From the NCBI GenBank assembly GCA_023078555.1, contig CM041197.1:5911810-5975809 (forward strand): a stretch of 64,000 nt of DNA, read 5' to 3'. Within the stretch, counting starts at the first letter, position 1. Each line of letters begins with the position of its first letter. The stretch comes from Ulva prolifera (taxonomy: Eukaryota > Chlorophyta > Ulvophyceae > Ulvales > Ulvaceae). The notes beneath the pieces are model-generated. The model was given only the letters and a program-made list of their open reading frames with translations, made no database searches and had not been told where the DNA came from. A program made the translations under genes and the position numbers. This document shows positions 28,201 to 56,996 of the stretch, in pieces.

Positions 28201-28299
28201 ATGACATAGGTGTGTGTGACCTTTGCGCACGTCCGTTAAGAGCAACATGCTTCCCTGTCACCTTGAAGTTGAAAAGTTCACAGGTGCTGAATATGTAAT
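25210..28299. repeat. 1849-bp tandem block pair
   Basis: Subtype order from 25210 to about 26450 repeats from 27059 to about 28299 at a constant offset of 1849 bp (11 monomers plus one base). Both copies begin with two consecutive monomers carrying the GATGAATATGACTTG variant and include a divergent 167-bp unit at 26039 and 27888. A longer-range match of 23.8-25.5 kb with 28.5-30.2 kb lies at offset 4705. Confidence 0.75.
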
Positions 28300-30925: not shown

Positions 30926-33900
30926 TTAAAGCGCAACCGGGTTCCCTGTCACCTTGAAGTTGAAAAGTTCACAGGTGCTGAATATGAAATGTATTGGCTC
31001 AGCGAGAAAAGATTTTCCACACGTCGAAGTTGAGTGCTTTACTACAACACACTCTTCACATGACATAGGTGTGTGTGACCTTTGCGCACGTCCGTTAAGA
31101 GCAACATGCTTCCCTGTCACCTTGAAGTTGAAAAGTTCACAGGTGCTGAATATGTAATGTATTGGCTCATCGAGAAACGATGTTTCAGACGTCGAAGTTA
31201 AGTGATTTACTACATCACACTCTACACATGACATAGGTGTGTGTGACCTTTGTTCACGTCCGTTAAGAGCAACATGCTTCCCTGTCACCTTGAAGTTGAA
31301 AAGTTCACAGGTCCTGAATATGTAATGTATTGGCTCATCGAGAAAAGATTTTCCACACGTCGAAGTTGAGTGCTTCACTACAACACACTCTTCACATGAC
31401 ATAGGTGTGTGTGACCTTTGCGCACGTCCGTTAAGAGCAACATGCTTCCCTGTCACCTTGAAGTTGAAAAGTTCACAGGTGCTGAATATGTAATGTATTG
31501 GCTCATCGAGAAATAATTTTTCAGACGTCGAAGTTGAGTGCTTCACTACACCACACTATTCACATGACATAGGTGTGTGTGACCTTTGCGCACGTCCGTT
31601 AAGAGCAACATGCTTCCCTGTCACCTAGTAGTTGAAAAGTTCACAGGCGCTGTATATGGCATGCATTTACACAGCGAGAAGAGAATTCGACACATTGGAT
31701 CAGAGCGCTACTCTAAAAAACACTTATCACAAGACATAGGTGTGTGTGACCTTTGCGCACGTCCGTTAAGAGCAACATGCTTCCCTGTCACCTTGAAGTT
31801 AAAAAGTTCACAGGTGCTGAATATGTAATGTATTGGCTCATCGAGAAAAGATTTTCCACACGTCGAAGTTGAGTGCTTTACTACAACACACTCTTCACAT
31901 GACATAGGTGTGTGTGACCTTTGCGCACGTCCGTTAAGAGCAACATGCTTCCCTGTAACCTTGAAGTTGAAAAGTTCACAGGTGCTGAATATGTAATGTA
32001 TTGGCTCAATCGAGAAAAGGTTTTCCACACGTCGAAGTTGAGTGCTTTACTACAACACACTCTTCACATGACATAGGTGTGTGTGACCTTTGCGCACGTC
32101 CGTTAAGAGCAACATGCTTCCCTGTCACCTTGAAGTTGAAAAGTTCACAGGTGCTGAATATGTAATGTATTGGCTCATCGAGAAATGATTTTTCAGACGT
32201 CGAAGTTAAGTGATTTACAACATCACACTCTACACATGACATAGGTGTGTGTGACCTTTGCGCACGGCCGTTAAGAGCAACATGCTTCCCTGTCACCTTG
32301 AAGTTGAAAAGTTCACAGGTGCTGAATATGTAATGTATTGGCTCATCGAGAAAAGATTTTCCACACGTCGAAGTTGAGTGCTTCACTACAACACACTCTT
32401 CACATGACATAGGTGTGTGTGACCTTTGCGCACGTCTGTTAAGAGCAACATGCTTCCCTGTCACCTTGAAGTTGAAAAGTTCACAGGTGATGAATATGAC
32501 TTGTATTGGCTCATCGAGAAAAGATTTTCCACACGTCGAAGTTGAGTGCTTTACTACAACACACTTAACTCAAGATATAGGTGTGTGTGACCTTTGCGCA
32601 CGTCCGTTAAAGCGCAACCGGGTTCCCTGTCACCTTGAAGTTGAAAAGTTCACAGGTGCTGAATATGTAATGTATTGGCTCATCGAGAAAAGATTTTCCA
32701 CACGTCGAAGTTGAGTGCTTTACTACAACACACTCTTCACATGACATAGGTGTGTGTGACCTTTGCGCACGTCTGTTAAGAGCAACATGCTTCCCTGTCA
32801 CCTTGAAGTTGAAAAGTTCACAGGTGATGAATATGACTTGTATTGGCTCATCGAGAAAAGATTTTCCACACGTCGAAGTTGAGTGCTTTACTACAACACA
32901 CTCTTCACATGACATAGGTGTGTGTGACCTTTGCGCACGTCCGTTAAAGCGCAACCGGCTTCCCTGTCACCTTGAAGTTGAAAAGTTCACAGGTGCTGAA
33001 TATGAAATGTATTGGCTCAGCGAGAAAAGATTTTCCACACGTCGAAGTTGAGTGCTTTACTACAACACACTCTTCACATGACATAGGTGTGTGTGACCTT
33101 TGCGCACGTCCGTTAAGAGCAACATGCTTCCCTGTCACCTTGAAGTTGAAAAGTTCACAGGTGCTGAATATGTAATGTATTGGCTCATCGAGAAACGATG
33201 TTTCAGACGTCGAAGTTAAGTGATTTACTACATCACACTCTACACATGACATAGGTGTGTGTGACCTTTGTTCACGTCCGTTAAGAGCAACATGCTTCCC
33301 TGTCACCTTGAAGTTGAAAAGTTCACAGGTCCTGAATATGTAATGTATTGGCTCATCGAGAAAAGATTTTCCACACGTCGAAGTTGAGTGCTTCACTACA
33401 ACACACTCTTCACATGACATAGGTGTGTGTGACCTTTGCGCACGTCCGTTAAGAGCAACATGCTTCCCTGTCACCTTGAAGTTGAAAAGTTCACAGGTGC
33501 TGAATATGTAATGTATTGGCTCATCGAGAAATAATTTTTCAGACGTCGAAGTTGAGTGCTTCACTACACCACACTATTCACATGACATAGGTGTGTGTGA
33601 CCTTTGCGCACGTCCGTTAAGAGCAACATGCTTCCCTGTCACCTAGTAGTTGAAAAGTTCACAGGCGCTGTATATGGCATGCATTTACACAGCGAGAAGA
33701 GAATTCGACACATTGGATCAGAGCGCTACTCTAAAAAACACTTATCACAAGACATAGGTGTGTGTGACCTTTGCGCACGTCCGTTAAGAGCAACATGCTT
33801 CCCTGTCACCTTGAAGTTAAAAAGTTCACAGGTGCTGAATATGTAATGTATTGGCTCATCGAGAAAAGATTTTCCACACGTCGAAGTTGAGTGCTTTACT

Positions 33901-35368
33901 ACAACACACTCTTCACATGACATAGGTGTGTGTGACCTTTGCGCACGTCCGTTAAGAGCAACATGCTTCCCTGTAACCTTGAAGTTGAAAAGTTCACAGG
34001 TGCTGAATATGTAATGTATTGGCTCAATCGAGAAAAGGTTTTCCACACGTCGAAGTTGAGTGCTTTACTACAACACACTCTTCACATGACATAGGTGTGT
34101 GTGACCTTTGCGCACGTCCGTTAAGAGCAACATGCTTCCCTGTCACCTTGAAGTTGAAAAGTTCACAGGTGCTGAATATGTAATGTATTGGCTCATCGAG
34201 AAATGATTTTTCAGACGTCGAAGTTAAGTGATTTACTACATCACACTCTACACATGACATAGGTGTGTGTGACCTTTGCGCACGGCCGTTAAGAGCAACA
34301 TGCTTCCCTGTCACCTTGAAGTTGAAAAGTTCACAGGTGCTGAATATGTAATGTATTGGCTCATCGAGAAAAGATTTTCCACACGTCGAAGTTGAGTGCT
34401 TCACTACAACACACTCTTCACATGACATAGGTGTGTGTGACCTTTGCGCACGTCCGTTAAGAGCAACATGCTTCCCTGTCACCTTGAAGTTGAAAAGTCA
34501 AAAGGTGCTGAATATGTAATGTATTGGCTCATCGAGAAATGATTTTTCACACGTCGAAGTTGAGTGCTTTACTACAACACACTTAACTCAAGATATAGGT
34601 GTGTGTGACCTTTGCGCACGTCCGTTAAAGCGCAACCGGGTTCCCTGTCACCTTGAAGTTGAAAAGTTCACAGGTGCTGAATATGTAATGTATTGGCTCA
34701 TCGAGAAAAGATTTTCCACACGTCGAAGTTGAGTGCTTTACTACAACACACTCTTCACATGACATAGGTGTGTGTGACCTTTGCGCACGTCTGTTAAGAG
34801 CAACATGCTTCCCTGTCACCTTGAAGTTGAAAAGTTCACAGGTGATGAATATGACTTGTATTGGCTCATCGAGAAAAGATTTTCCACACGTCGAAGTTGA
34901 GTGCTTTACTACAACACACTCTTCACATGACATAGGTGTGTGTGACCTTTGCGCACGTCCGTTAAAGCGCAACCGGCTTCCCTGTCACCTTGAAGTTGAA
35001 AAGTTCACAGGTGCTGAATATGAAATGTATTGGCTCAGCGAGAAAAGATTTTCCACACGTCGAAGTTGAGTGCTTTACTACAACACACTCTTCACATGAC
35101 ATAGGTGTGTGTGACCTTTGCGCACGTCCGTTAAGAGCAACATGCTTCCCTGTCACCTTGAAGTTGAAAAGTTCACAGGTGCTGAATATGTAATGTATTG
35201 GCTCATCGAGAAACGATGTTTCAGACGTCGAAGTTAAGTGATTTACTACATCACACTCTACACATGACATAGGTGTGTGTGACCTTTGTTCACGTCCGTT
35301 AAGAGCAACATGCTTCCCTGTCACCTTGAAGTTGAAAAGTTCACAGGTCCTGAATATGTAATGTATTG
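30926..35368. repeat. 2018-bp tandem block, two copies plus a third cut by the insertion
   Basis: Twelve-monomer blocks start at 30926 and 32944, and a third starts at 34962 and stops after 407 bp where foreign DNA begins at 35369. Subtype markers keep the 2018-bp offset throughout, for example the divergent unit at 31586 and 33604. The insertion target TATTG at 35364-35368 corresponds to the intact TATTG at 33346-33350, so the second copy shows the uninterrupted form of the target. Confidence 0.85.
35364..35368. repeat. Left target-site duplication TATTG
   Basis: The last five satellite bases before the inserted block. They reappear directly after it at 46568-46572. The ordinary monomer has a single TATTG in the context AATGTATTGGCTC, so one copy is extra. 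A 6-bp reading (GTATTG) is possible only if the right terminal G is counted as flank, which makes the inverted repeats unequal. Confidence 0.9.
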
Positions 35369-35388
35369 CACTAGCACGACTGAACACT
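35369..35388 (+). repeat. Left terminal inverted repeat
   Basis: Starts CACTAGCACGACTG and ends GAACACT. It matches the reverse complement of 46548-46567 at 19 of 20 positions, differing only at position 12 (C here, T there). Beyond 20 bp the two ends share only a loose TTATAGGG / TTAAACAGGG resemblance. Confidence 0.92.
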
Positions 35389-35710
35389 TCTTATAGGGAC
35401 CTCAATCAGTCACCTTGATAGGAACCCCCTTAGCAACTCGACCTCACTCTCCAGTGCTCACAGTGGCAAGGACGGATTCGGGCACAGCTGTCACTGAAAC
35501 GTTCTCCATCCGAGGAGGTGTGACGGGCCTGCGAAGGAGATCACTAGACCAACTCGCCGACGCAAGTGTGAGTAAAAGTGGTACAGCAGCAGCGGACCAT
35601 AATACCAAACACATGCCAAGCTACCACTTGCATGAAAACATCCCGATGCTATGGGGTAATCACACATTACATATACATTGCTTGACAATACCTTAACATT
35701 AAAAACTGAA
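35389..35710. other. Left subterminal region, no gene recognised
   Basis: Just inside the left end are AGGGACCTC, TAGGAACCCCC and CTCGACCTCAC, resembling in reverse orientation the GAGGTCC-type motifs near the right end. The remainder up to the hairpin has short open frames on both strands but none that I recognise. Subterminal motifs of this kind bind transposase or accessory protein in CACTA elements; that role here is inference. Confidence 0.45.
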
Positions 35711-35757
35711 AGTGTGCTTGCACCACCGCGCATCATTCGCGGTGCTGCAAGCACACT
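35711..35757. other. Strong hairpin, 20-bp stem and 7-base loop
   Basis: The arm AGTGTGCTTGCACCACCGCG (35711-35730) pairs with 35738-35757 at 19 of 20 positions around the loop CATCATT. The stem is GC-rich and would be very stable in RNA or single-stranded DNA. It lies between the left subterminal motifs and the first longer open frames. No poly-T tract follows, and the stem is shorter than most microRNA precursors, so the function is unknown. Confidence 0.8.
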
Positions 35758-35775
35758 GCCTGAACATGAGACCAT

Positions 35776-36138
35776 ATGACCATACACTCACATGACATGC
35801 GGACACATACATTCAATGGACATCATGCTTGTGGGAAGTTTCTACAAGGTGGGGTTAGTATGGAAACACGTGGGCATGTTATGGACTTGTGCAATGCATT
35901 TCGAGGCCAGATTGCATCGCCTGCAACGCCACCGCACATGCATGGCCATGCAGGGGATACGATGGTATACCATCCTATCACGGGAGACAAGGGAGGCTGC
36001 ACCGCTGCACAGTTGACACCAGTTGTTCAGCGGCTGTTGGCTGCGCACAATGCGGTAATGATTGTGTGTCCCTCGTTTGCTACATTCCGGTTTGTGGCAG
36101 GAGTGTGGCGGTGTCTGGCACAAAGCGCAAGGCCCTAG
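35776..36138 (+). other. Unrecognised 120-codon open frame
   Basis: An open frame from ATG at 35776 to a stop at 36138. Its second half (ending around VVQRLLAAHNAVMIV and CPSFATFRFVAG) has protein-like composition, but no family is recognised. A 151-codon frame overlaps it in another phase (35889-36344). Both lengths are near what chance gives in several kilobases at this base composition. Two perfect 14-bp palindromes lie within it. Confidence 0.15.
35939..35974. repeat. Two adjacent perfect 14-bp palindromes
   Basis: TGCATGGCCATGCA at 35939-35952 and GATGGTATACCATC at 35961-35974 are each perfectly self-complementary and lie 8 bp apart. The second recurs at 44681-44694 in the other flank, at the centre of a much longer palindrome. 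Both could be protein-binding sites; no binding protein is known. Confidence 0.8.
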
Positions 36139-36210
36139 AAGTCAACAATTGCAGGAGCGACCAGCAGCTACTGCCTTCCGCCCTGGCCATTCAGGTGACT
36201 CTTCAGATAA

Positions 36211-36817
36211 ACTTGTTTTTACCAGAGGCGCACGAAGGCAAAGGTTGGCAAACTGAAGGGGGCGCTGAGCGGTCACGGCACATGGCGTGCCGTCACGAAT
36301 GGACCTGGGGCTGCGACAGACACGGCAGGCAAGCGCACACGTAGAAGAAGAAAACCTCTAGAATCCATGGCTCAATTATGCACGGCTTGGCCCCGACTTC
36401 AGCCGCTGCATGGTGCACCGCCGCTTGACGTCGTCCGCAGCCGAGCGACAGCAAGTCCAGAGACAACAGAAGTCGAGGCTTACGCAGGTACATTATTGAT
36501 CGTTATAGATATAAGATTAGCTACACATAACTGTATCGTGATTGGGCTGGCGCATTGTCCGAGTCTCACGGTCAACAGCTCGTCGTACTGCCTTACACTG
36601 CGCTTCGCAGGCAAAAGGTATTGCAGGTCCAGAAGATGCTCGTATAGCTTGGATTGAAATAGCAAATGTGAGATCGCGTGTGAGAGAAGCAATTTGGACT
36701 GCAAACCGCCCGCCTGGCCCGAATTACGACCATTGCGCAGCGTGTCTACAGGCATCCAATGCAGAGCAGACCAGCGGTATTCTCAGGTTCAGCATCGTGA
36801 AGAGCTGGGTTACATGA
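36211..36817 (+). CDS. Candidate small spliced gene of the element, hypothetical
   Basis: The frame containing ATG at 36367 is open from 36211 to 36657. Upstream of that ATG it reads a basic stretch, KRTRRRRKPLES, resembling a nuclear localisation signal. An acceptor-like TTGTTTTTACCAG precedes it at about 36225. A GT-AG intron at 36488-36578 (donor CAG/GTACAT, acceptor GTCAACAG) would join codon 41 in phase to a frame ending at 36817, giving 119 residues from ATG 36367 or more if exon sequence starts upstream. The second part includes VRSRVREAIWTANRPPGPNY and CAACLQAS. An AATAAA lies at 37105. No domain is recognised. Without splicing the frame ends at 36657 (96 codons from ATG). Coding status is uncertain, since such lengths can occur by chance. 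Confidence 0.22.
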
Positions 36818-37104
36818 ACCAGACAACGGAAAAACACGCAAGAGTGTGGTTGTGGCTGCATGGGGCCCTGCTGCTTGTGCCGTTGTCTCAGTTCCAGCTC
36901 TGCTTTAGTGCGATCGCGACTACACGATCAATTTCTACGCATAACGCATGCGAGCTCCGCACGTCATTGCACCATTGCATATACATGTGTTGGTGATGGC
37001 ATTGACAACGCTGCCAATGGAAACATGCCGCGCGTGGGAGATACCCATGCTGCCACCAGCACGCTTGCTCGCCTTTGATCAGCCGGAACTACTAAAAATG
37101 TGGC
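36818..37104 (+). other. Segment after the candidate gene, no gene recognised
   Basis: Two overlapping forward frames cross this stretch (36694-36996 and 36860-37078), of 100 and 72 codons, neither with a recognisable domain. They could be decayed coding sequence, 3' untranslated sequence or chance. Confidence 0.2.
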
Positions 37105-37110
37105 AATAAA
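37105..37110 (+). promoter_or_regulatory. Possible poly(A) signal AATAAA
   Basis: AATAAA in the context TGGCAATAAAGCAAG, about 290 bp after the stop of the candidate spliced frame and 27 bp after the stop at 37078. The hexamer is the standard metazoan cleavage signal and is common by chance, so support is weak. Confidence 0.2.
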
Positions 37111-37505
37111 GCAAGTATGCAATCCTGAAGGCTGCTAATTATTCACTATCATCACTACCATCTGCCTTATGTGTCAACAAACAGGGTCACATGTGGCCAT
37201 GAACGTGTACCAAATTATCAGGCTCAGCATGGCTTTTACAGCAATTACTGCTGGCATGCCAACCAACACAGCATTCCCGATAATTACGAATGTCATGATG
37301 CAACAAAATTGGTGCCGTAGCTGGCCGACACCTGCTAATGCCAGCGTAGCCGGAGGGTCTACATCACTGCACGTGCCCTCACCGCTCTTACAGCTCGGAC
37401 GAAGTATGCACTGATACAGCAAGCCGGCTACAGGGCCAGCAACGCACAAAGCATATCCAGAGTCGAATACAAACGGCCTGCCAAGATATGTGCACTGCAC
37501 GTGGG
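37111..37505. other. Unique spacer before the minisatellite
   Basis: Non-repetitive sequence without a recognised gene. A 126-codon reverse frame (37174-37554) runs from the first minisatellite unit into this spacer and is probably incidental. The minisatellite begins abruptly at the shared word CCACCCACCCCTCG. Confidence 0.5.
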
Positions 37506-40500
37506 ACCACCCACCCCTCGCTGTCAGAACAGTGCTGCTCCTCAGCAATTGCACTGAGTGCTTGCTGGTGTGCCTTCACAGAATTCTGCATCACCGCACC
37601 ACCCACCCCTCGCTGTCAGAACAGTGCTGCTCCACAGCAATTGCACTGAGTGCTTGCTGGTGTGCCTTCACAGAATTCTGCATCACCGCACCACCCACCC
37701 CTCGCTGTCAGAACAGTGCTACTCCACAGCAATTGCACTGAGTGCTTGCTGGTGTGCCTTCACAGAATTCTGCATCACCGCACCACCCACCCCTCGCTGT
37801 CAGAACAGTGCTGCTCCTCAGCAATTGCACTGAGTGCTTGCTGGTGTGCCTTCACAGAATTCTGCATCACCGCACCACCCACCCCTCGCTGTCAGAACAG
37901 TGCTACTCCACAGCAATTGCACTGAGTGCTTGCTGGTGTGCCTTCACAGAATTCTGCATCACCGCACCACCCACCCCTCGCTGTCAGAACAGTGCTGCTC
38001 CTCAGCAATTGCACTGAGTGCTTGCTGGTGTGCCTTCACAGAATGCTGCATCACCGCACCACCCACCCCTCGCTGTCAGAACAGTGCTGCTCCACAGCAA
38101 TTGCACTGCGTGCTTGCTGGTGTGCCTTCACAGAATGCTGCATCGCCGCACCACCCACCCCTCGATGGCAGAACAGTGCTGCTCCACAGCAATTGCACTG
38201 CGTGCTTGCTGGCGTGCCTTCACAGAATTCTGCATCCCCGCACCACCCACCCCCCGCTGTCAGAACAGTGCTGCTCCTCAGCAATTGCACTGAGTGCTTG
38301 CTGGTGTGCCTTCACAGAATGCTGCATCGCCGCACCACCCACCCCTCGCTTTCAGAACAGTGCTGCTCCACAGCAATTGCACTGCGTGCTTGCTGGTGTG
38401 CCTTCACAGAATGCTGCATCGCCGCACCACCCACCCCTCGCTTTCAGAACAGTGCTGCTCCACAGCAATTGCACTGCGTGCTTGCTGGTGTGCCTTCACA
38501 GAATGCTGCATCGCCGCACCACCCACCCCTCGATGGCAGAACAGTGCTGCTCCACAGCAATTGCACTGCGTGCTTGCTGGCGTGCCTTCACAGAATGCTG
38601 CATCGCCGCACCACCCACCCCTCGCTTTCAGAACAGTGCTGCTCCACAGCAATTGCACTGCGTGCTTGCTGGTGTGCCTTCACAGAATGCTGCATCGCCG
38701 CACCACCCACCCCTCGCTGTCAGAACAGTGCTGCTCCACAGCAATTGCACTGCGTGCTTGCTGGTGTGCCTTCACAGAATGCTGCATCGCCGCACCACCC
38801 ACCCCTCGATGGCAGAACAGTGCTGCTCCACAGCAATTGCACTGCGTGCTTGCTGGTGTGCCTTCACAGAATGCTGCATCGCCGCACCACCCACCCCTCG
38901 ATGGCAGAACAGTGCTGCTCCACAGCAATTGCACTGCGTGCTTGCTGGCGTGCCTTCACAGAATGCTGCATCGCCGCACCACCCACCCCTCGCTGTCAGA
39001 ACAGTGCTGCTCCACAGAAATTGCACTGAGTGCTTGCTGGCGTGCCTTCACAGAATGCTGCATCACCGCACCACCCACCCCTCGCTGTCAGAACAGTGCT
39101 GCTCCTCAGCAATTGCACTGAGTGCTTGCTGGTGTGCCTTCACAGAATGCTGCATCACCGCACCACCCACCCCTCGCTGTCAGAACAGTGCTGCTCCACA
39201 GCAATTGCACTGCGTGCTTGCTGGTGTGCCTTCACAGAATGCTGCATCGCCGCACCACCCACCCCTCGATGGCAGAACAGTGCTGCTCCACAGCAATTGC
39301 ACTGCGTGCTTGCTGGCGTGCCTTCACAGAATTCTGCATCCCCGCACCACCCACCCCCCGCTGTCAGAACAGTGCTGCTCCTCAGCAATTGCACTGAGTG
39401 CTTGCTGGTGTGCCTTCACAGAATGCTGCATCGCCGCACCACCCACCCCTCGCTGTCAGAACAGTGCTACTCCACAGCAATTGCACTGAGTGCTTGCTGG
39501 TGTGCCTTCACAGAATTCTGCATCACCGCACCACCCACCCCTCGCTGTCAGAACAGTGCTGCTCCTCAGCAATTGCACTGAGTGCTTGCTGGTGTGCCTT
39601 CACAGAATTCTGCATCACCGCACCACCCACCCCTCGCTGTCAGAACAGTGCTACTCCACAGCAATTGCACTGAGTGCTTGCTGGTGTGCCTTCACAGAAT
39701 TCTGCATCACCGCACCACCCACCCCTCGCTGTCAGAACAGTGCTGCTCCTCAGCAATTGCACTGAGTGCTTGCTGGTGTGCCTTCACAGAATGCTGCATC
39801 ACCGCACCACCCACCCCTCGCTGTCAGAACAGTGCTGCTCCACAGCAATTGCACTGCGTGCTTGCTGGTGTGCCTTCACAGAATGCTGCATCGCCGCACC
39901 ACCCACCCCTCGATGGCAGAACAGTGCTGCTCCACAGCAATTGCACTGCGTGCTTGCTGGCGTGCCTTCACAGAATTCTGCATCGCCGCACCACCCACCC
40001 CTCGCTGTCAGAACAGTGCTGCTCCTCAGCAATTGCACTGAGTGCTTGCTGGTGTGCCTTCACAGAATTCTGCATCACCGCACCACCCACCCCTCGCTGT
40101 CAGAACAGTGCTGCTCCACAGCAATTGCACTGAGTGCTTGCTGGTGTGCCTTCACAGAATTCTGCATCACCGCACCACCCACCCCTCGCTGTCAGAACAG
40201 TGCTACTCCACAGCAATTGCACTGAGTGCTTGCTGGTGTGCCTTCACAGAATTCTGCATCACCGCACCACCCACCCCTCGCTGTCAGAACAGTGCTGCTC
40301 CTCAGCAATTGCACTGAGTGCTTGCTGGTGTGCCTTCACAGAATTCTGCATCACCGCACCACCCACCCCTCGCTGTCAGAACAGTGCTACTCCACAGCAA
40401 TTGCACTGAGTGCTTGCTGGTGTGCCTTCACAGAATTCTGCATCACCGCACCACCCACCCCTCGCTGTCAGAACAGTGCTGCTCCTCAGCAATTGCACTG

Positions 40501-42300
40501 AGTGCTTGCTGGTGTGCCTTCACAGAATGCTGCATCACCGCACCACCCACCCCTCGCTGTCAGAACAGTGCTGCTCCACAGCAATTGCACTGCGTGCTTG
40601 CTGGTGTGCCTTCACAGAATGCTGCATCGCCGCACCACCCACCCCTCGATGGCAGAACAGTGCTGCTCCACAGCAATTGCACTGCGTGCTTGCTGGCGTG
40701 CCTTCACAGAATTCTGCATCCCCGCACCACCCACCCCCCGCTGTCAGAACAGTGCTGCTCCTCAGCAATTGCACTGAGTGCTTGCTGGTGTGCCTTCACA
40801 GAATGCTGCATCGCCGCACCACCCACCCCTCGCTTTCAGAACAGTGCTGCTCCACAGCAATTGCACTGCGTGCTTGCTGGTGTGCCTTCACAGAATGCTG
40901 CATCGCCGCACCACCCACCCCTCGCTTTCAGAACAGTGCTGCTCCACAGCAATTGCACTGCGTGCTTGCTGGTGTGCCTTCACAGAATGCTGCATCGCCG
41001 CACCACCCACCCCTCGATGGCAGAACAGTGCTGCTCCACAGCAATTGCACTGCGTGCTTGCTGGCGTGCCTTCACAGAATTCTGCATCCCCGCACCACCC
41101 ACCCCCCGCTGTCAGAACAGTGCTGCTCCTCAGCAATTGCACTGAGTGCTTGCTGGTGTGCCTTCACAGAATGCTGCATCGCCGCACCACCCACCCCTCG
41201 CTTTCAGAACAGTGCTGCTCCACAGCAATTGCACTGCGTGCTTGCTGGTGTGCCTTCACAGAATGCTGCATCGCCGCACCACCCACCCCTCGCTGGCAGA
41301 ACAGTGCTGCTCCACAGCAATTGCACTGCGTGCTTGCTGGCGTGCCTTCACAGAATGCTGCATCGCCGCACCACCCACCCCTCGCTGTCAGAACAGTGCT
41401 GCTCCACAGAAATTGCACTGAGTGCTTGCTGGCGTGCCTTCACAGAATGCTGCATCACCGCACCACCCACCCCTCGCTGTCAGAACAGTGCTGCTCCTCA
41501 GCAATTGCACTGAGTGCGTGCTGGTGTGCCTTCACAGAATGCTGCATCACCGCACCACCCACCCCTCGCTGTCAGAACAGTGCTGCTCCACAGCAATTGC
41601 ACTGCGTGCTTGCTGGTGTGCCTTCACAGAATGCTGCATCGCCGCACCACCCACCCCTCGATGGCAGAACAGTGCTGCTCCACAGCAATTGCACTGCGTG
41701 CTTGCTGGCGTGCCTTCACAGAATTCTGCATCCCCGCACCACCCACCCCCCGCTGTCAGAACAGTGCTGCTCCTCAGCAATTGCACTGAGTGCTTGCTGG
41801 TGTGCCTTCACAGAATGCTGCATCGCCGCACCACCCACCCCTCGCTTTCAGAACAGTGCTGCTCCACAGCAATTGCACTGCATGCTTGCTGGTGTGCCTT
41901 CACAGAATGCTGCATCGCCGCACCACCCACCCCCCGCTGTCAGAACAGTGCTGCTCCACAGCAATTGCACTGCGTGCTTGCTGGTGTGCCTTCACAGAAT
42001 GCTGCATCGCCGCACCACCCACCCCTCGATGGCAGAACAGTGCTGCTCCACAGCAATTGCACTGCGTGCTTGCTGGCGTGCCTTCACAGAATTCTGCATC
42101 CCCGCACCACCCACCCCCCGCTGTCAGAACAGTGCTGCTCCTCAGCAATTGCACTGAGTGCTTGCTGGTGTGCCTTCACAGAATTCTGCATCACCGCACC
42201 ACCCACCCCTCGCTGTCAGAACAGTGCTGCTCCACAGCAATTGCACTGAGTGCTTGCTGGTGTGCCTTCACAGAATTCTGCATCACCGCACCACCCACCC
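37506..42300. repeat. 92-bp minisatellite, about 52 units
   Basis: Tandem 92-bp units built around GCACTGAGTGCTTGCTGG, CCTTCACAGAATTCTGC, ACCACCCACCCCTCGC and CAGAACAGTGCTGC. Diagnostic variants are GAATTC/GAATGC, ATCACCG/ATCGCCG/ATCCCCG, CTGTCAG/CTTTCAG/GATGGCAG, CTCCTCAG/CTCCACAG and ACTGAGTG/ACTGCGTG. Variant order repeats at larger scale: the same three-unit pattern starts at 38018, 39122, 40502 and 41514 (12, 15 and 11 units apart), and 37926-39029 resembles 40410-41513 at 27 units. Since 92 is not divisible by 3, one frame rotates through three phases; ACTGCGTG removes the only frequent TGA, so forward frames up to 551 codons appear (37834-39489). No protein is called. Confidence 0.95.
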
Positions 42301-42352
42301 CCCTCCCCCTCTGCATGCAGTGCTGCTCTACAGCATTACACTCTGCCTTGCA
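42301..42352. repeat. Degenerate terminal unit of the minisatellite
   Basis: After the last regular unit the sequence still resembles it: CAGTGCTGCTCTACAGC matches CAGTGCTGCTCCACAGC, and ACACTCTGCCTTGC resembles CACTGAGTGCTTGC. Edge units of tandem arrays commonly decay because they escape homogenisation. Confidence 0.7.
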
Positions 42353-42524
42353 TTTGCAGCCTGGAATGGTGAGCACTGTTCGGATTTACATCGATTGTGA
42401 GATACATGGCCCTGCTGGTGTATATGAGCCTCACCTCGAGGTGATCTTTGTCTTGTCAGCGGCGTCTTGTGCAGTGGTAGTCCAGCTGCGCACGTGCGGG
42501 TTTGTTCAGGATATCACGCCGTAG
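42353..42524 (+). other. Open frame running out of the minisatellite
   Basis: The frame open through the final minisatellite units continues into unique sequence to the TAG at 42524, reading MVSTVRIYIDCEIHGPAGVY and further hydrophobic residues (VIFVLSAASCAVVVQL). An acceptor-like TTGCATTTGCAG ends at 42360 just before it, so an independent exon is possible. No family is recognised. Confidence 0.2.
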
Positions 42525-43440
42525 GTACTGGTAGGTGGGAGCACCCACCCACAGCATGTGCGGCGTTGCGCCGGCTCGGCCATGCCTTGAAATTTGTTGT
42601 TGTGACGCAGTGCAGCTTGCCAAGCGTTTGCATGGTGTACAACCCTCACTTGCACAACACATGCTCATTAGCACTGGCCGCAGTCCAGTGAATCAATCTT
42701 CGAGGTGATCACACCATGGCGTGCACGGTCGAGCCTGAGCATAGCTGCTGTTGGCCATGCATGTTTTTATTAGCTGACGTCAGGGTACCCTTTCCAGTCA
42801 ACATATGTGGCGTTGCCCACGTCAACAGGTATCCCTGATTCCTTTTCAGCTGAGACGTGCTCAGCCGGAGAATGTGGAGGTGTTCGTACAAGGGACGCTG
42901 CAGAGCTCTGCATGCCACACGTCGTCGGTGGCTACAGGGGCTTTGCCACCGGCGCGAGATCACTGCTTCTGCAGCTTGCACAATCAACATGCGCGCATTC
43001 TTAGCCGGGATTCCATTTGGCATGTATCATTTAATAACGTTAGTCCATGTATTGGCTCGTAACACCTGAGCCGGAGCCATACTTGGCGGCTGCTGGTCCC
43101 ATGCCCATTACAGGCGCACCTGGATTGCAGCGCCATTAGTTATGACTTGATAGATGCAATTGTAGTTATTAATTTGATCTGTATCCAACATGGGGCTTGC
43201 CGTTGTCTGTCGCTTTGTTTCAAGCGTTGTTGACCATCGCGACCTGCACAGCTCGATCAGCTCTGCGCAAGGATGCCTAAGAAGGCCAGCATGACATGTA
43301 TACACGGTGCGTCTTTATCTTGTTTTGCGTTTTAACTTAATTCACAATGGTGCTTTGCTTGCCTTCTGAGAGGCCTGCGATCGTGCGGCGCTGCCTTGCC
43401 GTGCACGGGAGAGTCTGTTTGTTTTTTTTCCTGATGGTAC
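42525..43440. other. Unique region with short unassigned open frames
   Basis: The longest forward frame is 42805-43062 (85 codons, including VEVFVQGTLQSSACHTSS). Another ends at 42691 and reads LKFVVVTQC and CMVYNPHLHN. GTGCGGCGTTGC (42557-42568) and TATGTGGCGTTGC (42804-42816) are similar words 250 bp apart and may be decayed repeats. None matches a family I know, and the lengths do not exceed chance expectation. Confidence 0.2.
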
Positions 43441-44128
43441 TACATGAATATCAGTAATGTGTGGCAGACTTTATGTCCAACAACGCCTGGTGTTGACGGT
43501 CGTGTGCTGACAACCGAACGCCTCCGGTCTATGCGGTCCAACGAGACGATTGACAGAATGCGCATTGACGCAGGTGCTCCATTGAATCGCCACTACTCGT
43601 CACATAAGATGCACAGTCAACGAGTCATGGACGTTTACGAAGTGACATGTTGGTACGTGCTTGCGCTCATACCCGCTGTTCGATAAGAGCTGGAACAACG
43701 GTGAGGTGAATTCGGAGCTGCTTTACCGCACCCTGCGTCGGCGTATGACATTGTTGCTCTGTCCACCCAGGTAATGGTACTGCTGTAGACGAGTTTGCAT
43801 CTGCTGCAGCGTTTCGCTTAAGATTCTTCAAAGTTCTTGACGTTGTTACATGATATCCGAGGTAGTTGACGACGAAGGCCATGTGGATATGTGCGCGCAA
43901 ATGCATGCATATTGTGATGACGCCCTTGTTCATTCCGATGTGACCTGCACGCTGCAGCAGCAGCTGCGCTACGTGGGAACCCCCCCCCCCGAAAAGCGCG
44001 ATTTCTGGGCTGGCCAGATCACCGTCACGCTGGTGCTAAATTCTCTCGTTTTTTCTATCAAATATCCCAATAATCACGTTCTTCAGGGGTGTATGAAGAC
44101 AGTTTCGCGAAATGTGGGCGGTAGGTGA
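43441..44128. other. Unique region with competing open frames on both strands
   Basis: Forward frames at 43444-43686 (80 codons, LRSMRSNETIDRMRIDAGAP) and 43850-44128 (92 codons) overlap reverse frames at 43667-43933 and 44058-44486. Composition does not favour one strand clearly. It could be decayed element coding sequence, but no transposase motif was identified. Confidence 0.18.
43966..43986 (+). repeat. Perfect 21-bp inverted repeat, left arm
   Basis: GCGCTACGTGGGAAC followed by C residues. It is an exact reverse complement of 44627-44647, 682 bp overall from arm to arm. The C run extends to 43990, making eleven C in a row. The pair could mark a small nested element or a decayed hairpin; no convincing target duplication flanks it. 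Confidence 0.8.
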
Positions 44129-44626
44129 GCTTATGAAACTGAACAGACCACCGATTAGCAGCAATCGGGCATGGCACATGTCGTGACGCCTGCGATCGCA
44201 AACGTATCGACCCCAGGAGACCTCTGCATACACTAAATTGCAGTATGCAGGCCTCAGGTTGGCCGATGCGCAACCGGGGCGACGGACTTGCACTTGCTGC
44301 ATTGCTACTGCATTCGGATGACGCAATGTTGCGATGATCGTCCATCCGGGCCGCGTGACTTGGCAGGACAACGCGAGCGATGCACGAATACATTTTGAAC
44401 AAAAACAAACGTGTTTGCCGCAGCCTGTGGGCGCGTTGGGGCTCGATACATGGCGTGCACCGTGTCCGCCCCACCATTAAAGGCACGCGTGCCCCTCACA
44501 CGCCGGGCCGTCACGCGGACACCTGTCATCATACACCTCCGCGTTTTGGTCAGTAATGACGCATTCGGGCGTCGATAGGCCGTCACGACGCGTGATCAGG
44601 CAATGTTACGGCCACCCCATGATTCC
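44129..44626. other. Interior of the 21-bp inverted repeat pair, no gene recognised
   Basis: About 500 bp between the last forward frame and the right arm. Reverse frames of 142 (44058-44486), 111 (44036-44371) and 93 codons (44305-44586) overlap here in different phases. None has a recognised domain. Confidence 0.35.
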
Positions 44627-44647
44627 GGGGGGGTTCCCACGTAGCGC
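44627..44647 (-). repeat. Perfect 21-bp inverted repeat, right arm
   Basis: Seven G followed by TTCCCACGTAGCGC, the exact reverse complement of 43966-43986. It ends 10 bp before a long palindrome. Confidence 0.8.
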
Positions 44648-44657
44648 GCGCTGACAA

Positions 44658-44717
44658 TGATGTGTCCACAAGTGCATCAGGATGGTATACCATCCTAATG
44701 CACTTGTGGTCACATCA
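44658..44717. repeat. 60-bp near-perfect palindrome
   Basis: Centred on GGTATACC (44684-44691). The left arm, including CCACAAGTGCATCAGGATGG, pairs with the right arm including CCATCCTAATGCACTTGTGG. Of 30 possible base pairs, 28 form, with mismatches at 44677/44698 and 44665/44710. There is effectively no spacer, so it would extrude as a cruciform or fold into a tight RNA hairpin. The central 16 bp also occur at 35961-35976. Confidence 0.88.
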
Positions 44718-46160
44718 GTTCCCCCGACGTCTCCACTTGACACCAGTTGGCTGCTTAGCACCGGCAGTGACTGTATTTTAACCTGCCCCACACCATGCGA
44801 GCTTGATCAGTGTGATCCATTGAAATATGCAGTCATTGTCAGTCATGTTGCCCTTGCATGTATGCCTTTCTGAAGCAAGTTAATATTTCTGTAGTACCAG
44901 GCTGCTATATATTTCTCCACTGCCTCATCTCACAGACTTTATGACCATGCAGGCATATCAGACAATGTCAAGGAATTACAAAATGCCGTGCCAAGTGTAG
45001 ATCTATTCAAAGCTGTACAGAGTCTGCCTCTAAGGCTAAAATATGATCATTCCCGCTGCGGTATGCAAAGCTCTCATACTGATCTTGATTTGCACATGCT
45101 ACACATGCACTTCGATGCATTGCAAAATGCGAATCATGCTATCTAGGTGCATGTTTCTGATGTCAACACATTGTCTTTGGGCCTGCACATGCAGATGTGG
45201 TGCATTGTGAGTTCATGGCATGCGTTGCCTTTGCACTAGCATAATTACATCTCAGAGTGTTCTTGGCCTGATTGCTGGTGTGGTGTTGATGCTGCCCGCC
45301 TCGCCACCTGTATTCTTGGAAAACCTCTTGAAGTGTCATTCTCAACCTGAAAGTGTGTGGTGTTTCACATGCCAAGAGTGCCCAAAGTCAGTCCTTTGCA
45401 TGCCCATACCAGATTCGTAACAGAATTTTTGGCATGCAGATGAATTAGGAATGTGAAGAAGCGCCTGGGACTGCACACGTCACACAACAATGGTTATATT
45501 TTTTAAAGAGCCATCTCAGATCTGACATTATGCGGTATGTTTCGTGTGATGTTAAGAATCCCACTTGGCCACTGTCTAGTGAATTGTATTGCATGCGAAA
45601 TTGTGCAGAGCCTGTTGTTGTGGCGAGCTGTCTAGTTATGTGAACATGATTCTTATGCAGGCTTTGACTATATTTGATGTCTGCGCTGAAGAGAGGCTGT
45701 GGAGCCAGAGACAAGCAAGTGAAGTATTTCAGTCACATTACAGAATGGTCCTATGGATGTGAGATGAGACTGCAGTGGGGTGGACTGGGAAATTGCAGTT
45801 TAACTGCGGGCTCCTTTAGGATGCAAGTCAGGCGCCAATACTTGTGCATTTTTGTATGTTTTAAGAGGCTCCAGTATGCGTCTTCAAGCGGGGAGACTTT
45901 ACTTTTAGGGGTCCTTGGCGCTCGATGTAACATATGGCCACATAATCCGTGCGTAGAGATGGAATTGACTGTATATTGTGCTTCATGTCCTTGATACATG
46001 TTCCCATCCAGTTCTGACTTTTCTACCTGTGATACACAGCGATGTCGGCATGAGTGGTGTGTTTGAGACACAATGTTCTATGCATCCACACAATGGAATT
46101 GCATCTACTTATTGCGGCCTCGTGCCACACCGGCCTGGTGCCACCCCGTCCACATAGACT
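44718..46160. other. AT-richer unique region, no gene recognised
   Basis: A 63-codon forward frame (44682-44873) starts in the palindrome. A 106-codon frame lies at 45674-45994, overlapped by a reverse frame of equal length at 45751-46071. Neither is recognised. The words GCATGC and TGCATG are frequent. I see no further repeat or RNA gene. Confidence 0.4.
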
Positions 46161-46547
46161 GCCTAGGAGGTCATTGCATGATCAATCTGGATCACCATGG
46201 ACCACACGAGTTCACGTTTGCTCCATAGCTGATCCTCAGCGAGGCCCTAGGTAGTCACTAGGAGCCCCTCAATGCCCAAACCTGCTTTCTCGCAACCTCT
46301 AGGCGGTCCTTAGCCAATCACTGGCGAAGATGACCAGGTGATGACCAGGTGCGGAGTCTGCAAGGACCGGCAGGGGACTCCCTGCAACATCATATGCTAA
46401 GGATGTGTCATCCGTGCTCTTACGAGGTCCCCAATCCATCACTACTAGGTCCTCCAGGCTTCATCAACAACTCATTATACGGTCGTACGCGAGCTCCTAG
46501 TGACCTGATGAGGACTGTGTAGAGACTGTGTAACCCCCTGTTTAATG
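46161..46547. repeat. Right subterminal repeat region
   Basis: Short motifs of the GAGGTCC type recur in both orientations: TAGGAGGTC (46164), GCGGTCCT (46303), AAGGACC (46362), GAGGTCC (46424), TAGGTCCTCC (46446) and AGGAC (46511). The 12-mer GTCACTAGGAGC at 46254-46265 appears inverted at 46493-46504 and contains the terminal CACTAG. Two 11-bp tandem pairs lie at 46329-46350 (GATGACCAGGT) and 46513-46534 (GACTGTGTAGA / GACTGTGTAAC). Clusters like this are characteristic of the ends of CACTA elements. Confidence 0.7.
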
Positions 46548-46567
46548 AGTGTTCAATCGTGCTAGTG
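46548..46567 (-). repeat. Right terminal inverted repeat
   Basis: Reads AGTGTTCAATCGTGCTAGTG, the reverse complement of the left end with one difference. It is followed directly by TATTG and normal satellite. Confidence 0.92.
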
Positions 46568-46572
46568 TATTG
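46568..46572. repeat. Right target-site duplication TATTG
   Basis: First five satellite bases after the element, identical to 35364-35368. The satellite continues GGCTCATCGAG in the phase expected from the left side. Confidence 0.9.
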
Positions 46573-49500
46573 GCTCATCGAGAAAAGATTTTCCACACGT
46601 CGAAGTTGAGTGCTTCACTACAACACACTCTTCACATGACATAGGTGTGTGTGACCTTTGCGCACGTCCGTTAAGAGCAACATGCTTCCCTGTCACCTTG
46701 AAGTTAAAAAGTCAACAGGTGCTGAATATGTAATGTATTGGCTCATCGAGAAATGATTTTTCACACGTCGAAGTTGAGTGCTTTACTACAACACATTTAA
46801 CTCAAGATATAGGTGTGTGTGACCTTTGCGCACGTCCGTTAAAGCGCAACCGGGTTCCCTGTCACCTTGAAGTTGAAAAGTTCACAGGTGCTGAATATGT
46901 AATGTATTGGCTCATCGAGAAAAGATTTTCCACACGTCGAAGTTGAGTGCTTTACTACAACACACTCTTCACATGACATAGGTGTGTGTGACCTTTGCGC
47001 ACGTCTGTTAAGAGCAACATGCTTCCCTGTCACCTTGAAGTTGAAAAGTTCACAAGTGATGAATATGACTTGTATTGGCTCATCGAGAAAAGATTTTCCA
47101 CACGTCGAAGTTGAGTGCTTTACTGCAACACACTCTTCACATGACATAGGTGTGTGTGACCTTTGCGCACGTCTGTTAAGAGCAACATGCTTCCCTGTCA
47201 CCTTGAAGTTGAAAAGTTCACAGGTGATGAATATGACTTGTATTGGCTCATCGAGAAAAGATTTTCCACACGTCGAAGTTGAGTGCTTTACTACAACACA
47301 CTCTTCACATGACATAGGTGTGTGTGACCTTTGCGCACGTCCGTTAAGAGCAACATGCTTCCCTGTCACCTTGAAGTTGAAAAGATCACAGGTGCTGAAT
47401 ATGTAATGTATTGGCTCATCGAGAAATATTTTTTCAGACGTCGAAGTTGAGTGCTTCACTACACCACACTATTCACATGACATAGGTGTGTGTGACCTTT
47501 GCGCACGTCCGTTAAGAGCAACATGCTTCCCTGTCACCTAGTAGTTGAAAAGTTCACAGGCGCTGTATATGGCATGCATTTACACAGCGAGAAGAGAATT
47601 CGACACATTGGATCAGAGCGCTACTCTAAAAAACACTTATCACAAGACATAGGTGTGTGTGACCTTTGCGCACGTCCGTTAAGAGCAACATGCTTCCCTG
47701 TCACCTTGAAGTTAAAAAGTTCACAGGTGCTGAATATGTAATGTATTGGCTCATCGAGAAAAGATTTTCCACACGTCGAAGTTGAGTGCTTTACTACAAC
47801 ACACTCTTCACATGACATAGGTGTGTGTGACCTTTGCGCACGTCCGTTAAGAGCAACATGCTTCCCTGTCACCTTGAAGTTGAAAAGTTCACAGGTGCTG
47901 AATATGTAATGTATTGGCTCATCGAGAAATAATTTTTCAGACGTCGAAGTTGAGTGCTTCACTACACCACACTATTCACATGACATAGGTGTGTGTGACC
48001 TTTGCGCACGTCCGTTAAGAGCAACATGCTTCCCTGTCACCTAGTAGTTGAAAAATTCACAGGCGCTGTATATGGCATGCATTTACACAGCGAGAAGAGA
48101 ATTCGACACATTGGATCAGAGCGCTACTCTAAAAAACACTTATCACAAGACATAGGTGTGTGTGACCTTTGCGCACGTCCGTTAAGAGCAACATGCTTCC
48201 CTGTAACCTTGAAGTTGAAAAGTTCACAGGTGCTGAATATGTAATGTATTGGCTCAATCGAGAAAAGGTTTTCCACACGTCGAAGTTGAGTGCTTTACTA
48301 CAACACACTCTTCACATGACATAGGTGTGTGTGACCTTTGCGCACGTCCGTTAAGAGCAACATGCTTCCCTGTCACCTTGAAGTTGAAAAGTTCACAGGT
48401 GCTGAATATGTAATGTATTGGCTCATCGAGAAATGATTTTTCAGACGTCGAAGTTAAGTGATTTACTACATCACACTCTACACATGACATAGGTGTGTGT
48501 GACCTTTGCGCACGGCCGTTAAGAGCAACATGCTTCCCTGTCACCTTGAAGTTGAAAAGTTCACAGGTGCTGAATATGTAATGTATTGGCTCATCGAGAA
48601 AAGATTTTCCACACGTCGAAGTTGAGTGCTTCACTACAACACACTCTTCACATGACATAGGTGTGTGTGACCTTTGCGCACGTCCGTTAAGAGCAACATG
48701 CTTCCCTGTCACCTTGAAGTTGAAAAGTCAACAGGTGCTGAATATGTAATGTATTGGCTCATCGAGAAATGATTTTTCACACGTCGAAGTTGAGTGCTTT
48801 ACTACAACACACTTAACTCAAGATATAGGTGTGTGTGACCTTTGCGCACGTCCGTTAAAGCGCAACCGGGTTCCCTGTCACCTAAAAGTTAAAAAGTTCA
48901 CAGGTGCTGAATATGTAATGTATTGGCTCATCGAGAAATGATTTTCCACACGTCGAAGTTGAGTGCTTTACTACAACACACTCTTCACATGACATAGGTG
49001 TGTGTGACCTTTGCGCACGTCCGTTAAGAGCAACATGCTTCCCTGTCACCTTGAAGATGAAAAGTTCACAGGTGCTGAATATGTAATGTATTGGCTCATC
49101 GAGAAACGATGTTTCAGACGTCGAAGTTAAGTGATTTACTACATCACACTCTACACATGACATAGGTGTGTGTGACCTTTGTTCACGTCCGTTAAGAGCA
49201 ACATGCTTCCCTGTCACCTTGAAGTTGAAAAGTTCACAGGTGATGAATATGACTTGTATTGGCTCATCGAGAAAAGATTTTCCACACGTCGAAGTTGAGT
49301 GCTTTACTGCAACACACTCTTCACATGACATAGGTGTGTGTGACCTTTGCGCACGTCCGTTAAAGCGCAACCGGCTTCCCTGTCACCTTGAAGTTGAAAA
49401 GTTCACAGGTGCTGAATATGAAATGTATTGGCTCAGCGAGAAAAGATTTTCCACACGTCGAAGTTGAGTGCTTTACTACAACACACTCTTCACATGACAT

Positions 49501-52500
49501 AGGTGTGTGTGACCTTTGCGCACGTCCGTTAAGAGCAACATGCTTCCCTGTCACCTTGAAGTTGAAAAGTCAACAGGTGCTGAATATGTAATGTATTGGC
49601 TCATCGAGAAATGATTTTTCACACGTCGAAGTTGAGTGCTTTACTACAACACACTTAACTCAAGATATAGGTGTGTGTGACCTTTGCGCACGTCCGTTAA
49701 AGCGCAACCGGGTTCCCTGTCACCTTGAAGTTGAAAAGTTCACAGGTGCTGAATATGTAATGTATTGGCTCATCGAGAAAAGATTTTCCACACGTCGAAG
49801 TTGAGTGCTTTACTACAACACACTCTTCACATGACATAGCTGTGTGTGACCTTTGCGCACGTCTGTTAAGAGCAACATGCTTCCCTGTCACCTTGAAGTT
49901 GAAAAGTTCACAGGTGATGAATATGACTTGTATTGGCTCATCGAGAAAAGATTTTCCACACGTCGAAGTTGAGTGCTTTACTGCAACACACTCTTCACAT
50001 GACATAGGTGTGTGTGACCTTTGCGCACGTCCGTTAAAGCGCAACCGGCTTCCCTGTCACCTTGAAGTTGAAAAGTTCACAGGTGCTGAATATGAAATGT
50101 ATTGGCTCAGCGAGAAAAGATTTTCCACACGTCGAAGTTGAGTGCTTTACTACAACACACTCTTCACATGACATAGGTGTGTGTGACCTTTGCGCACGTC
50201 CGTTAAGAGCAACATGCTTCCCTGTCACCTTGAAGTTGAAAAGTTCACAGGTGCTGAATATGTAATGTATTGGCTCATCGAGAAATAATTTTTCAGACGT
50301 CGAAGTTGAGTGCTTCACTACACCACACTATTCACATGACATAGGTGTGTGTGACCTTTGCGCACGTCCGTTAAGAGCAACATGCTTCCCTGTCACCTAG
50401 TAGTTGAAAAGTTCACAGGCGCTGTATATGGCATGCATTTACACAGCGAGAAGAGAATTCGACACATTGGATCAGAGCGCTACTCTAAAAAACACTTATC
50501 ACAAGACATAGGTGTGTGTGACCTTTGCGCACGTCCGTTAAGAGCAACATGCTTCCCTGTCACCTTGAAGTTAAAAAGTTCACAGGTGCTGAATATGTAA
50601 TGTATTGGCTCATCGAGAAACGATGTTTCAGACGTCGAAGTTAAGTGATTTACTACATCACACTCTACACATGACATAGGTGTGTGTGACCTTTGTTCAC
50701 GGCCGTTAAGAGCAACATGCTTCCCTGTCACCTTGAAGTTGAAAAGTTCACAGGTGCTGAATATGTAATGTATTGGCTCATCGAGAAAAGATTTTCCACA
50801 CGTCGAAGTTGAGTGCTTCACTACAACACACTCTTCACATGACATAGGTGTGTGTGACCTTTGCGCACGTCCGTTAAGAGCAACATGCTTCCCTGTCACC
50901 TTGAAGATGAAAAGTTCACAGGTGCTGAATATGTAATGTATTGGCTCATCGAGAAAAGATTTTCCACACGTCGAAGTTGAGTGCTTTACTACAACACACT
51001 CTTCACATGACATAGGTGTGTGTGACCTTTGCGCACGTCCGTTAAGAGCAACATGCTTCCCTGTCACCTTGAAGTTGAAAAGTTCACAGGTGCTGAATAT
51101 GTAATGTATTGGCTCAATCGAGAAAAGATTTTTCAGACGTCGAAGTTAAGTGATTTACTACATCACACTCTACACATGACATAGGTGTGTGTGACCTTTG
51201 CGCACGGCCGTTAAGAGCAACATGCTTCCCTGTCACCTTGAAGTTGAAAAGTTCACAGGTGCTGAATATGTAATGTATTGGCTCATCGAGAAACGATGTT
51301 TCAGACGTCGAAGTTAAGTGATTTACTACATCACACTCTACACATGACATAGGTGTGTGTGACCTTTGTTCACGGCCGTTAAGAGCAACATGCTTCCCTG
51401 TCACCTTGAAGTTGAAAAGTCAACAGGTGCTGAATATGTAATGTATTGGCTCATCGAGAAACGATGTTTCAGACGTCGAAGTTAAGTGATTTACTACATC
51501 ACACTCTACACATGACATAGGTGTGTGTGACCTTTGTTCACGGCCGTTAAGAGCAACATGCTTCCCTGTCACCTTGAAGTTGAAAAGTTCACAGGTGCGG
51601 AATATGTAATGTATTGGCTCATCGAGAAAAGATTTTCCACACGTCGAAGTTGAGTGCTTTACTACAACACACTTAACTCAAGATATAAGTGTGTGTGACC
51701 TTTGCGCACGTCCGTTAAAGCGCAACCGGGTTCCCTGTCACCTTGAAGTTGAAAAGTTCACAGGTGCTGAATATGTAATGTATTGGCTCATCGAGAAAAG
51801 ATTTTCCACACGTCGAAGTTGAGTGCTTTACTACAACACACTCTTCACATGACATAGCTGTGTGTGACCTTTGCGCACGTCTGTTAAGAGCAACATGCTT
51901 CCCTGTCACCTTGAAGTTGAAAAGTTCACAGGTGATGAATATGAAATGTATTGGCTCAGCGAGAAAAGATTTTCCACACGTCGAAGTTGAGTGCTTTACT
52001 ACAACACACTCTTCACAAGACATAGGTGTGTGTGACCTTTGCGCACGTCCGTTAAGAGCAACATGCTTCCCTGTCACCTTGAAGTTAAAAAGTTCACAGG
52101 TGCTGAATATGTAATGTATTGGCTCATCGAGAAAAGATTTTCCACACGTCGAAGTTGAGTGCTTTACTACAACACACTCTTCACATGACATAGGTGTGTG
52201 TGACCTTTGCGCACGTCCGTTAAGAGCAACATGCTTCCCTGTCACCTAGTAGTTGAAAAGTTCACAGGCGCTGTATATGGCATGCATTTACACAGCGAGA
52301 AGAGAATTCGACACATTGGATCAGAGCGCTACTCTAAAAAACACTTATCACAAGACATAGGTGTGTGTGACCTTTGCGCACGTCCGTTAAGAGCAACATG
52401 CTTCCCTGTCACCTTGAAGTTGAAAAGTTCACAGGTGCTGAATATGTAATGTATTGGCTCAATCGAGAAAAGATTTTTCAGACGTCGAAGTTAAGTGATT

Positions 52501-56323: not shown

Positions 56324-56996
56324 TCAATCGAGAAAAGATTTTTCAGACGTCGAAGTTAAGTGATTTACTACATCACACTCTACACATGACATATGTGTGT
56401 GTGACCTTTGCGCACGGCCGTTAAGAGCAACATGCTTCCCTGTCACCTTGAAGTTGAAAAGTTCACAGGTGCTGAATATGTAATGTATTGGCTCATCGAG
56501 AAACGATGTTTCAGACGTCGAAGTTAAGTGATTTACTACATCACACTCTACACATGACATAGGTGTGTGTGACCTTTGTTCACGGCCGTTAAGAGCAACA
56601 TGCTTCCCTGTCACCTTGAAGTTGAAAAGTCAACAGGTGCTGAATATGTAATGTATTGGCTCATCGAGAAACGATGTTTCAGACGTCGAAGTTAAGTGAT
56701 TTACTACATCACACTCTACACATGACATAGGTGTGTGTGACCTTTGTTCACGTCCGTTAAGAGCAACATGCTTCCCTGTCACCTTGAAGATGAAAAGTTC
56801 ACAGGTGCTGAATATGTAATGTATTGGCTCATCGAGAAAAGATTTTCCACACGTCGAAGTTGAGTGCTTTACTACAACACACTCTTCACATGACATAGGT
56901 GTGTGTGACCTTTGCGCACGTCCGTTAAGAGCAACATGCTTCCCTGTCACCTTGAAGTTGAAAAGTTCACAGGTGCTGAATATGTAATGTATTGGC

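Follow-up and report, generated by a model that had tools for sequence, protein, structure and literature searches.

Transposons of the CACTA/EnSpm superfamily are described with terminal inverted repeats (TIRs) of the form CACT(A/G) and a 3-bp target site (PMC4423477, Table 1), and CAC..GTG ends together with 3-bp duplications have been taken as EnSpm, with target duplications of 2 to 5 bp given for the wider CMCT group (PMC12730594). Links between DNA transposons and tandem repeats have been described in Chenopodium, where Jozin elements captured a 171-bp satellite array and a 16.5-kb CACTA-like element holds a 5.5-kb array of 32.5 monomers (PMC8978399), in Arabidopsis, where the Tnat transposons carry tandem repeats of 60 or 240 bp at their centre (cited in PMC10794571), and in Drosophila virilis, where the foldback transposon Tetris is linked to satellite DNA (PMC4079207). 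Here, an 11,199-bp element was analyzed at positions 35369-46567 of a 64,000-bp stretch of Ulva prolifera DNA (C2 5911810-5975809; hereafter the window), where it sits within a 168-bp satellite array. Sequence comparison suggests that a non-autonomous transposon of CACTA type (EnSpm-like) was recently inserted into the satellite by a cut-and-paste event (probability approximately 0.87).

The insertion and its empty site

At the element ends, the outermost 20 bases form inverted repeats that agree at 19 of 20 positions (CACTAGCACGAYTGAACACT), and the sequence TATTG lies flush with both ends, five bases being the length of the longest flush direct repeat. For a single pair of sites, inverted repeats of 19/20 or better together with a flush 5-mer have a combined chance of about 5e-14. 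When the flanks were rejoined with a single TATTG (100 bp from each side), the resulting sequence matched both 31233-31432 and 33251-33450 at 200 of 200 positions. This match alone leaves the register unfixed, because four other places in the window match the rejoined site at 199/199. The register was based on a 3-kb alignment of 30511-33583 with 32529-35601 (empty-site coordinates), which, offset by 2018, shows 99.2% identity and crosses the insertion point. The intact counterpart of the target lies exactly 2018 bp upstream, and a second counterpart lies 4036 bp upstream.

An earlier note, made from the sequence alone, had reported the 19/20 termini with both TATTG copies intact, the restoration of a normal monomer upon removal of the block with one TATTG, and the intact counterpart at 33346-33350. 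The comparison of the ends, the flush-repeat check, and the 200/200 match to the upstream array bore out these claims, and the 3-kb alignment at the 2018-bp offset, together with the exact empty site, confirmed the coordinates and the site itself.

Copies of the family, their target duplications, and the minisatellite

The 88.9-Mb genome has 38 matches to the chlorophyll a/b-binding family, the best of which resembles chloroplast chlorophyll a-b binding proteins and light-harvesting proteins in the PDB, as in a photosynthetic eukaryote with chlorophyll a/b. A search of this genome located the left end of the element in seven places and the right end in nine. Six copies were full-length: the window copy (11199 bp) and five others spread over four contigs, namely C10 (9279 bp), C7 (9824 bp), C4 (9841 and 7157 bp), and C2 at 6.15 Mb (20297 bp). 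The unique arms of these five siblings were 97.9-99.7% identical to those of the window copy, from which they differed by 15, 18, 22, 22, and 69 substitutions over about 6,400 aligned bases, while nine variants were private to the window copy (0.14% of 6.4 kb). All six copies had identical end points on different flanks, with CACTAGCACGAYTGAACAC at both ends. The family is judged to be recently active.

Satellite arrays are generally difficult to assemble, and an assembly artefact that wrongly joined the element to the satellite was therefore considered. It was rejected as very unlikely, because the same end points recur in all six copies and each copy has its own flush direct repeat. At the window, moreover, the duplication is flush with the exact ends of the family, the monomer is restored on rejoining, and the copy carries both its private variants (nine columns) and a minisatellite map of its own. 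The proposal of a real and intact transposon insertion was upheld.

Target-site duplications were 3 bp long in all five siblings (AGT, ATA, ACG, CCA, and CGA), and the same length was found in a diverged relative on C1 (TGA), a coding relative on C9 (CAT), a trio of related elements on C2 (AGT), and an element nested in the C2 sibling (GCC). Counting the trio once, exactly 3 bp were thus duplicated in nine of nine insertion events besides the window copy. The 5-bp duplication that the earlier note's proposed check of other copies had implied for the family is accordingly not a family trait: end probes did find other copies with the same ends, but none with 5 bp. This negative outcome does not refute the insertion itself. 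The window duplication may reflect either a wider cut or a 3-bp duplication followed by two filler nucleotides that happen to match.

All six full-length copies have CACT(A/G) and CAC..GTG termini, and the CACTAG termini and 3-bp duplications of the family therefore fit CACTA/EnSpm, the window copy being the only one with a duplication of another length. Transib elements make 5-bp target duplications, and a Transib-like element, with CAC ends and a 5-bp duplication as a family rule, was considered for the window copy, which shows both features. The 2 to 5 bp given for the wider CMCT group (PMC12730594) would also be consistent with such an element. This explanation was rejected as very unlikely, because the 5-bp duplication is confined to the window copy and absent from the nine other events (five siblings and four further related or nested events), and the frames of the C9 relative look TNP2-like in a motif reading by eye. 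The elements are considered a new and mostly ordinary family of a well-known transposon type, with no claim made of their absence from the literature. They differ from described CACTA/EnSpm elements (PMC4423477) in that no transposase was detected, the duplication of the window copy is 5 bp, and the supposed coding relatives have diverged beyond the reach of the Transposase_21 and DUF4218 cut-offs.

Between the two unique arms lies a minisatellite of a 92-bp unit, to which the earlier note's entry makes no reference, present in 52 units in the window copy and in 8, 31, 37, and 37 units in four siblings. In the sixth copy (C2:6150415-6170711), the array is split into 16 and 6.4 units by an 11,646-bp element with CACTACAAGAAACC / CACTACAAGAAA ends, which holds a 175-bp array of its own (35.6 units). 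The CACTACAAGAAA end of this nested element is a classical CACTA end. Differences in copy size are explained mainly by the number of 92-bp units, with one copy enlarged by the nested insertion. The array lengths of the five uninterrupted copies all leave 12 modulo 92. Their unit maps begin alike in the window and C7 copies, and begin and end alike in the C10 copy and one of the C4 copies (C4a), but are otherwise rearranged despite fewer than 0.4% substitutions in the arms among these five copies. In Jozin, the element has coding sequence (PMC8978399), whereas none was detected here, and the array varies between 8 and 52 units in copies that are nearly identical.

Less complete relatives were also identified. 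The diverged C1 relative is 4329 bp long and 81-89% identical in parts. At C5:7664157-7664362, 206 bp of the right end (99.5% identity) adjoin unrelated DNA, and no left end was found in the 19 kb read; either the end was truncated or the element has a different interior. At C4:3181390-3181538, 149 bp of the right end (96%) occur without a left end. In the surrounding region (C4 3170600-3200599), two open frames, as far as their sequence was read, share an FRALLHGTKKPxKYP stretch, which a third has in looser form, and these are perhaps a local gene family. About 90 bp past its end, the C4a copy is followed by a transposase-like fragment that contains one stop (C4:7983071-7983394); the copy seems to have inserted into another transposon or next to one.

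Table 1. Coordinates of the element, its target duplications, and the surrounding satellite, given as positions of the window
Feature	Position	Strand	Remarks
Left target duplication TATTG, 5 bp	35364..35368	.	Flush direct repeat; empty site TGTATTGGCTC around 33346-33350
Left TIR CACTAGCACGACTGAACACT	35369..35388	+	
Left unique arm, 2137 bp	35369..37505	+	98.4-99.6% identical in five other full-length copies
23-nt imperfect hairpin, left arm	35711..35757	+	91% complementary, 1 nt between arms
92-bp minisatellite, 52 units	37506..42301	+	
Right unique arm, 4266 bp	42302..46567	+	97.9-99.7% identical in five other copies
0.68-kb repeat with 21-nt perfect inverted repeats at its bounds	43966..44647	+	
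60-bp near-perfect palindrome, right arm	44658..44717	+	30-nt arms, 93%
Right TIR CACTAGCACGATTGAACACT (as read on - strand)	46548..46567	-	
Right target duplication TATTG	46568..46572	.	
Intact target counterpart, 2018 bp upstream	33346..33350	+	
Second intact target counterpart, 4036 bp upstream	31328..31332	+	31233-31432 match 200/200
168-bp satellite array left of insertion	1..35368	+	
168-bp satellite array right of insertion, same orientation	46568..64000	+	

The 0.68-kb repeat of the right arm has separate matches in the genome at C7:3442143 (95%), C1:9816956 (93%), and C1:8905476 (86%, part), and is perhaps a small nested element.

Coding relatives and mobilization

Twelve six-frame translations of the element arms (six per arm) matched no Pfam family at E 0.1, and the region 35300-46700 matched no Rfam family at the gathering threshold. 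Similarly, tblastn with the open frames of the C9 relative gave no match inside the element, the sole match lying in sequence that flanks the C4a copy. Since neither Pfam families nor C9-frame matches were found inside it, the element is, as far as its sequence can tell, at most non-autonomous, with no TNP2 (Transposase_21) transposase detected.

When up to three mismatches were allowed, a search with the ends matched 75 times; many of the weak matches are attributed to chance, because the reversed pattern gave 49. The search also revealed a second group of elements with CACTAGCAGGA ends, which includes the C9 relative (C9:2443759-2464296). This element is 20,538 bp long, contains a 97-bp array of 14.6 units, and has an end 68% identical to the right end of the window element over about 0.3 kb. 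On its minus strand lies a row of open frames, one of which contains LTFGLFIDG...LAFIDGPKEPTN and the next ADTPAR...GCDKC. Motif I of the EnSpm transposase includes DG, F/Y, and WP (PMC1636069), of which DG is present in these frames whereas F/Y and WP are not; a CxxC is present as well. Transposases of CACTA/EnSpm have a C(2)C and an H(3-4)H between the second D and the last E, and a CDKC after a D-x-PAR stretch was observed here. We read these frames, by eye, as the putative DD part of a spliced TNP2-like/EnSpm transposase.

A 150-aa frame downstream in the C9 element had 150 scored places among 208 candidates, some of the lower ones being fragments of one gene, and the top 49 were 66-100% identical over most of the length. 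Some of these matches share score and identity on different contigs, and several transposon lineages may be recently active. DUF4218 is a partner domain in plant CACTA transposases. Its profile (PF13960) had 60 places in the genome, 30 of which overlap matches of the 150-aa frame as counted by eye.

Several results weigh against the assignment to CACTA/EnSpm, besides the 5-bp duplication of the window copy. The Pfam profile Transposase_21 (PF02992) had no match in the genome, although its silence is uninformative because it had no match in any of 14 control genomes either. Three minus-strand frames from two stretches of the C9 element matched no transposase family in Pfam and gave only C2H2-like zinc fingers below threshold. 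All 60 DUF4218 matches were below the cut-off, the best reaching 25.0 of 27 bits. They may be due to chance, because one of the 14 control genomes, an archaeon, also had a match below the cut-off. In a member, partly N, of a second coding group, DUF4218 was found at E 0.11 only, together with an unrelated weak match. Among the elements read, no coding element had the exact CACTAGCACGA ends, and no C9-type coding frame was found in the stretches read around the two partial right ends on C5 and C4. Finally, repeats in the sub-terminal regions were not demonstrated: repeated pairs were in excess at the right end (24 against a mean of 10.5, reached in 0/40 shuffles) and not at the left end (11 against 10.2; 16/40 shuffles), but one of three interior controls showed an excess as well (29 against 12.2; 0/40). 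A sub-terminal motif, searched with up to three mismatches, matched four times against 6.4 by chance; the only two exact matches, located close to either end of the element, were those from which the motif had been derived.

A cut-and-paste insertion of a CACTA-type element could have proceeded as follows. A TNP2-like transposase supplied by related coding elements of the C9 kind would bind the shared terminal sequence, excise the element, and reinsert it at a staggered cut, the usual width of which is 3 bp. At the window, the cut would have been 5 bp wide, or a 3-bp cut would have been followed by two filler nucleotides that match by chance. After insertion, the minisatellite would expand and contract through slippage or unequal exchange, producing most of the differences in size. 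The mobilizing partner may be the C9 element or a closer coding element that was not seen.

Satellite setting and age of the insertion

The satellite has a uniform orientation in the window, as judged from three common 22-mers. A 20-mer shared by about 96% of the window monomers occurs 3049 times in the genome, always on one strand, which corresponds to about 534 kb of satellite. Among the matches listed, all places were on C2, from 5,479,462 on, and the 168-bp satellite likely forms one large array on this contig. A search for four TTTAGGG units gave no match. A 5.8-kb gap without the 20-mer, again among the matches listed, was observed at C2:5492768-5498583 and is perhaps another insertion.

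Judged from 1.5 kb of flank on each side, tandem arrays surround three of the six full-length copies: the window copy (168 bp), the C10 copy (180 bp), and the C2 copy at 6.15 Mb (168/334 bp). Tandem arrays were likewise observed around the C2 trio and in the right flank at C4:9426282, and internal arrays occur in all three kinds of element that were read fully (92 bp in this family, 97 bp in the C9 element, and 175 bp in the nested element). The element could thus be part of the satellites' own history, either seeding tandem repeats or preferring them as targets, which would be compatible with a recent insertion of a CACTA-type transposon. This is considered unlikely. In the flanking sequence read, no array surrounds the other three full-length copies or the C1 and C9 relatives, and a preference for arrays is not claimed. 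In addition, 84 of 86 genome matches of the 92-bp unit were in the six full-length copies, with one in the C1 relative and one weak match elsewhere; these counts are lower bounds, and within them no free array of the unit was found. A seeding of satellites by the 92-bp unit was rejected on this ground, and the family differs here from Tetris, which is reported to have supplied satellite building blocks (PMC4079207). A broader scheme, in which a CACTA-type lineage would habitually carry hypervariable arrays, land preferentially in satellites, and exchange repeats with them, with the 5-bp duplication of the window reflecting another cut geometry in satellite chromatin, appears quite improbable.

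The earlier note had dated the insertion after the 2018-bp amplification and had observed that the element was not copied with the array inside the window. The latter was confirmed, as the element arms occur only once in the window. For the former, the insertion is absent from both upstream counterparts, and its private variants (0.14%) are few relative to the divergence between the 2018-bp copies (0.8%); it is on these grounds that the insertion is probably later than the local 2018-bp duplication. The dating is plausible, but rates may differ, and it concerns a single duplicated stretch in which the mismatches are partly clustered, which hints at gene conversion. An element that stays uncopied with its array is no general rule in this genome, as illustrated by the trio at C2:12061064-12104429. 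There, three copies of a related CACTAGCAGGA element, of which only the ends were read, lie about 16.75 kb apart in a 20/40-bp tandem array and share the same AGT duplication; here array and element were apparently amplified as one.

At this locus, an element of a standard kind has inserted cleanly into a satellite in which the empty site is still intact; the 5-bp duplication and the recurrence of copies in arrays are minor points of interest. The minisatellite maps of the six near-identical copies show the speed of array change relative to point mutation, and the coding relative may point to the transposase of the lineage.

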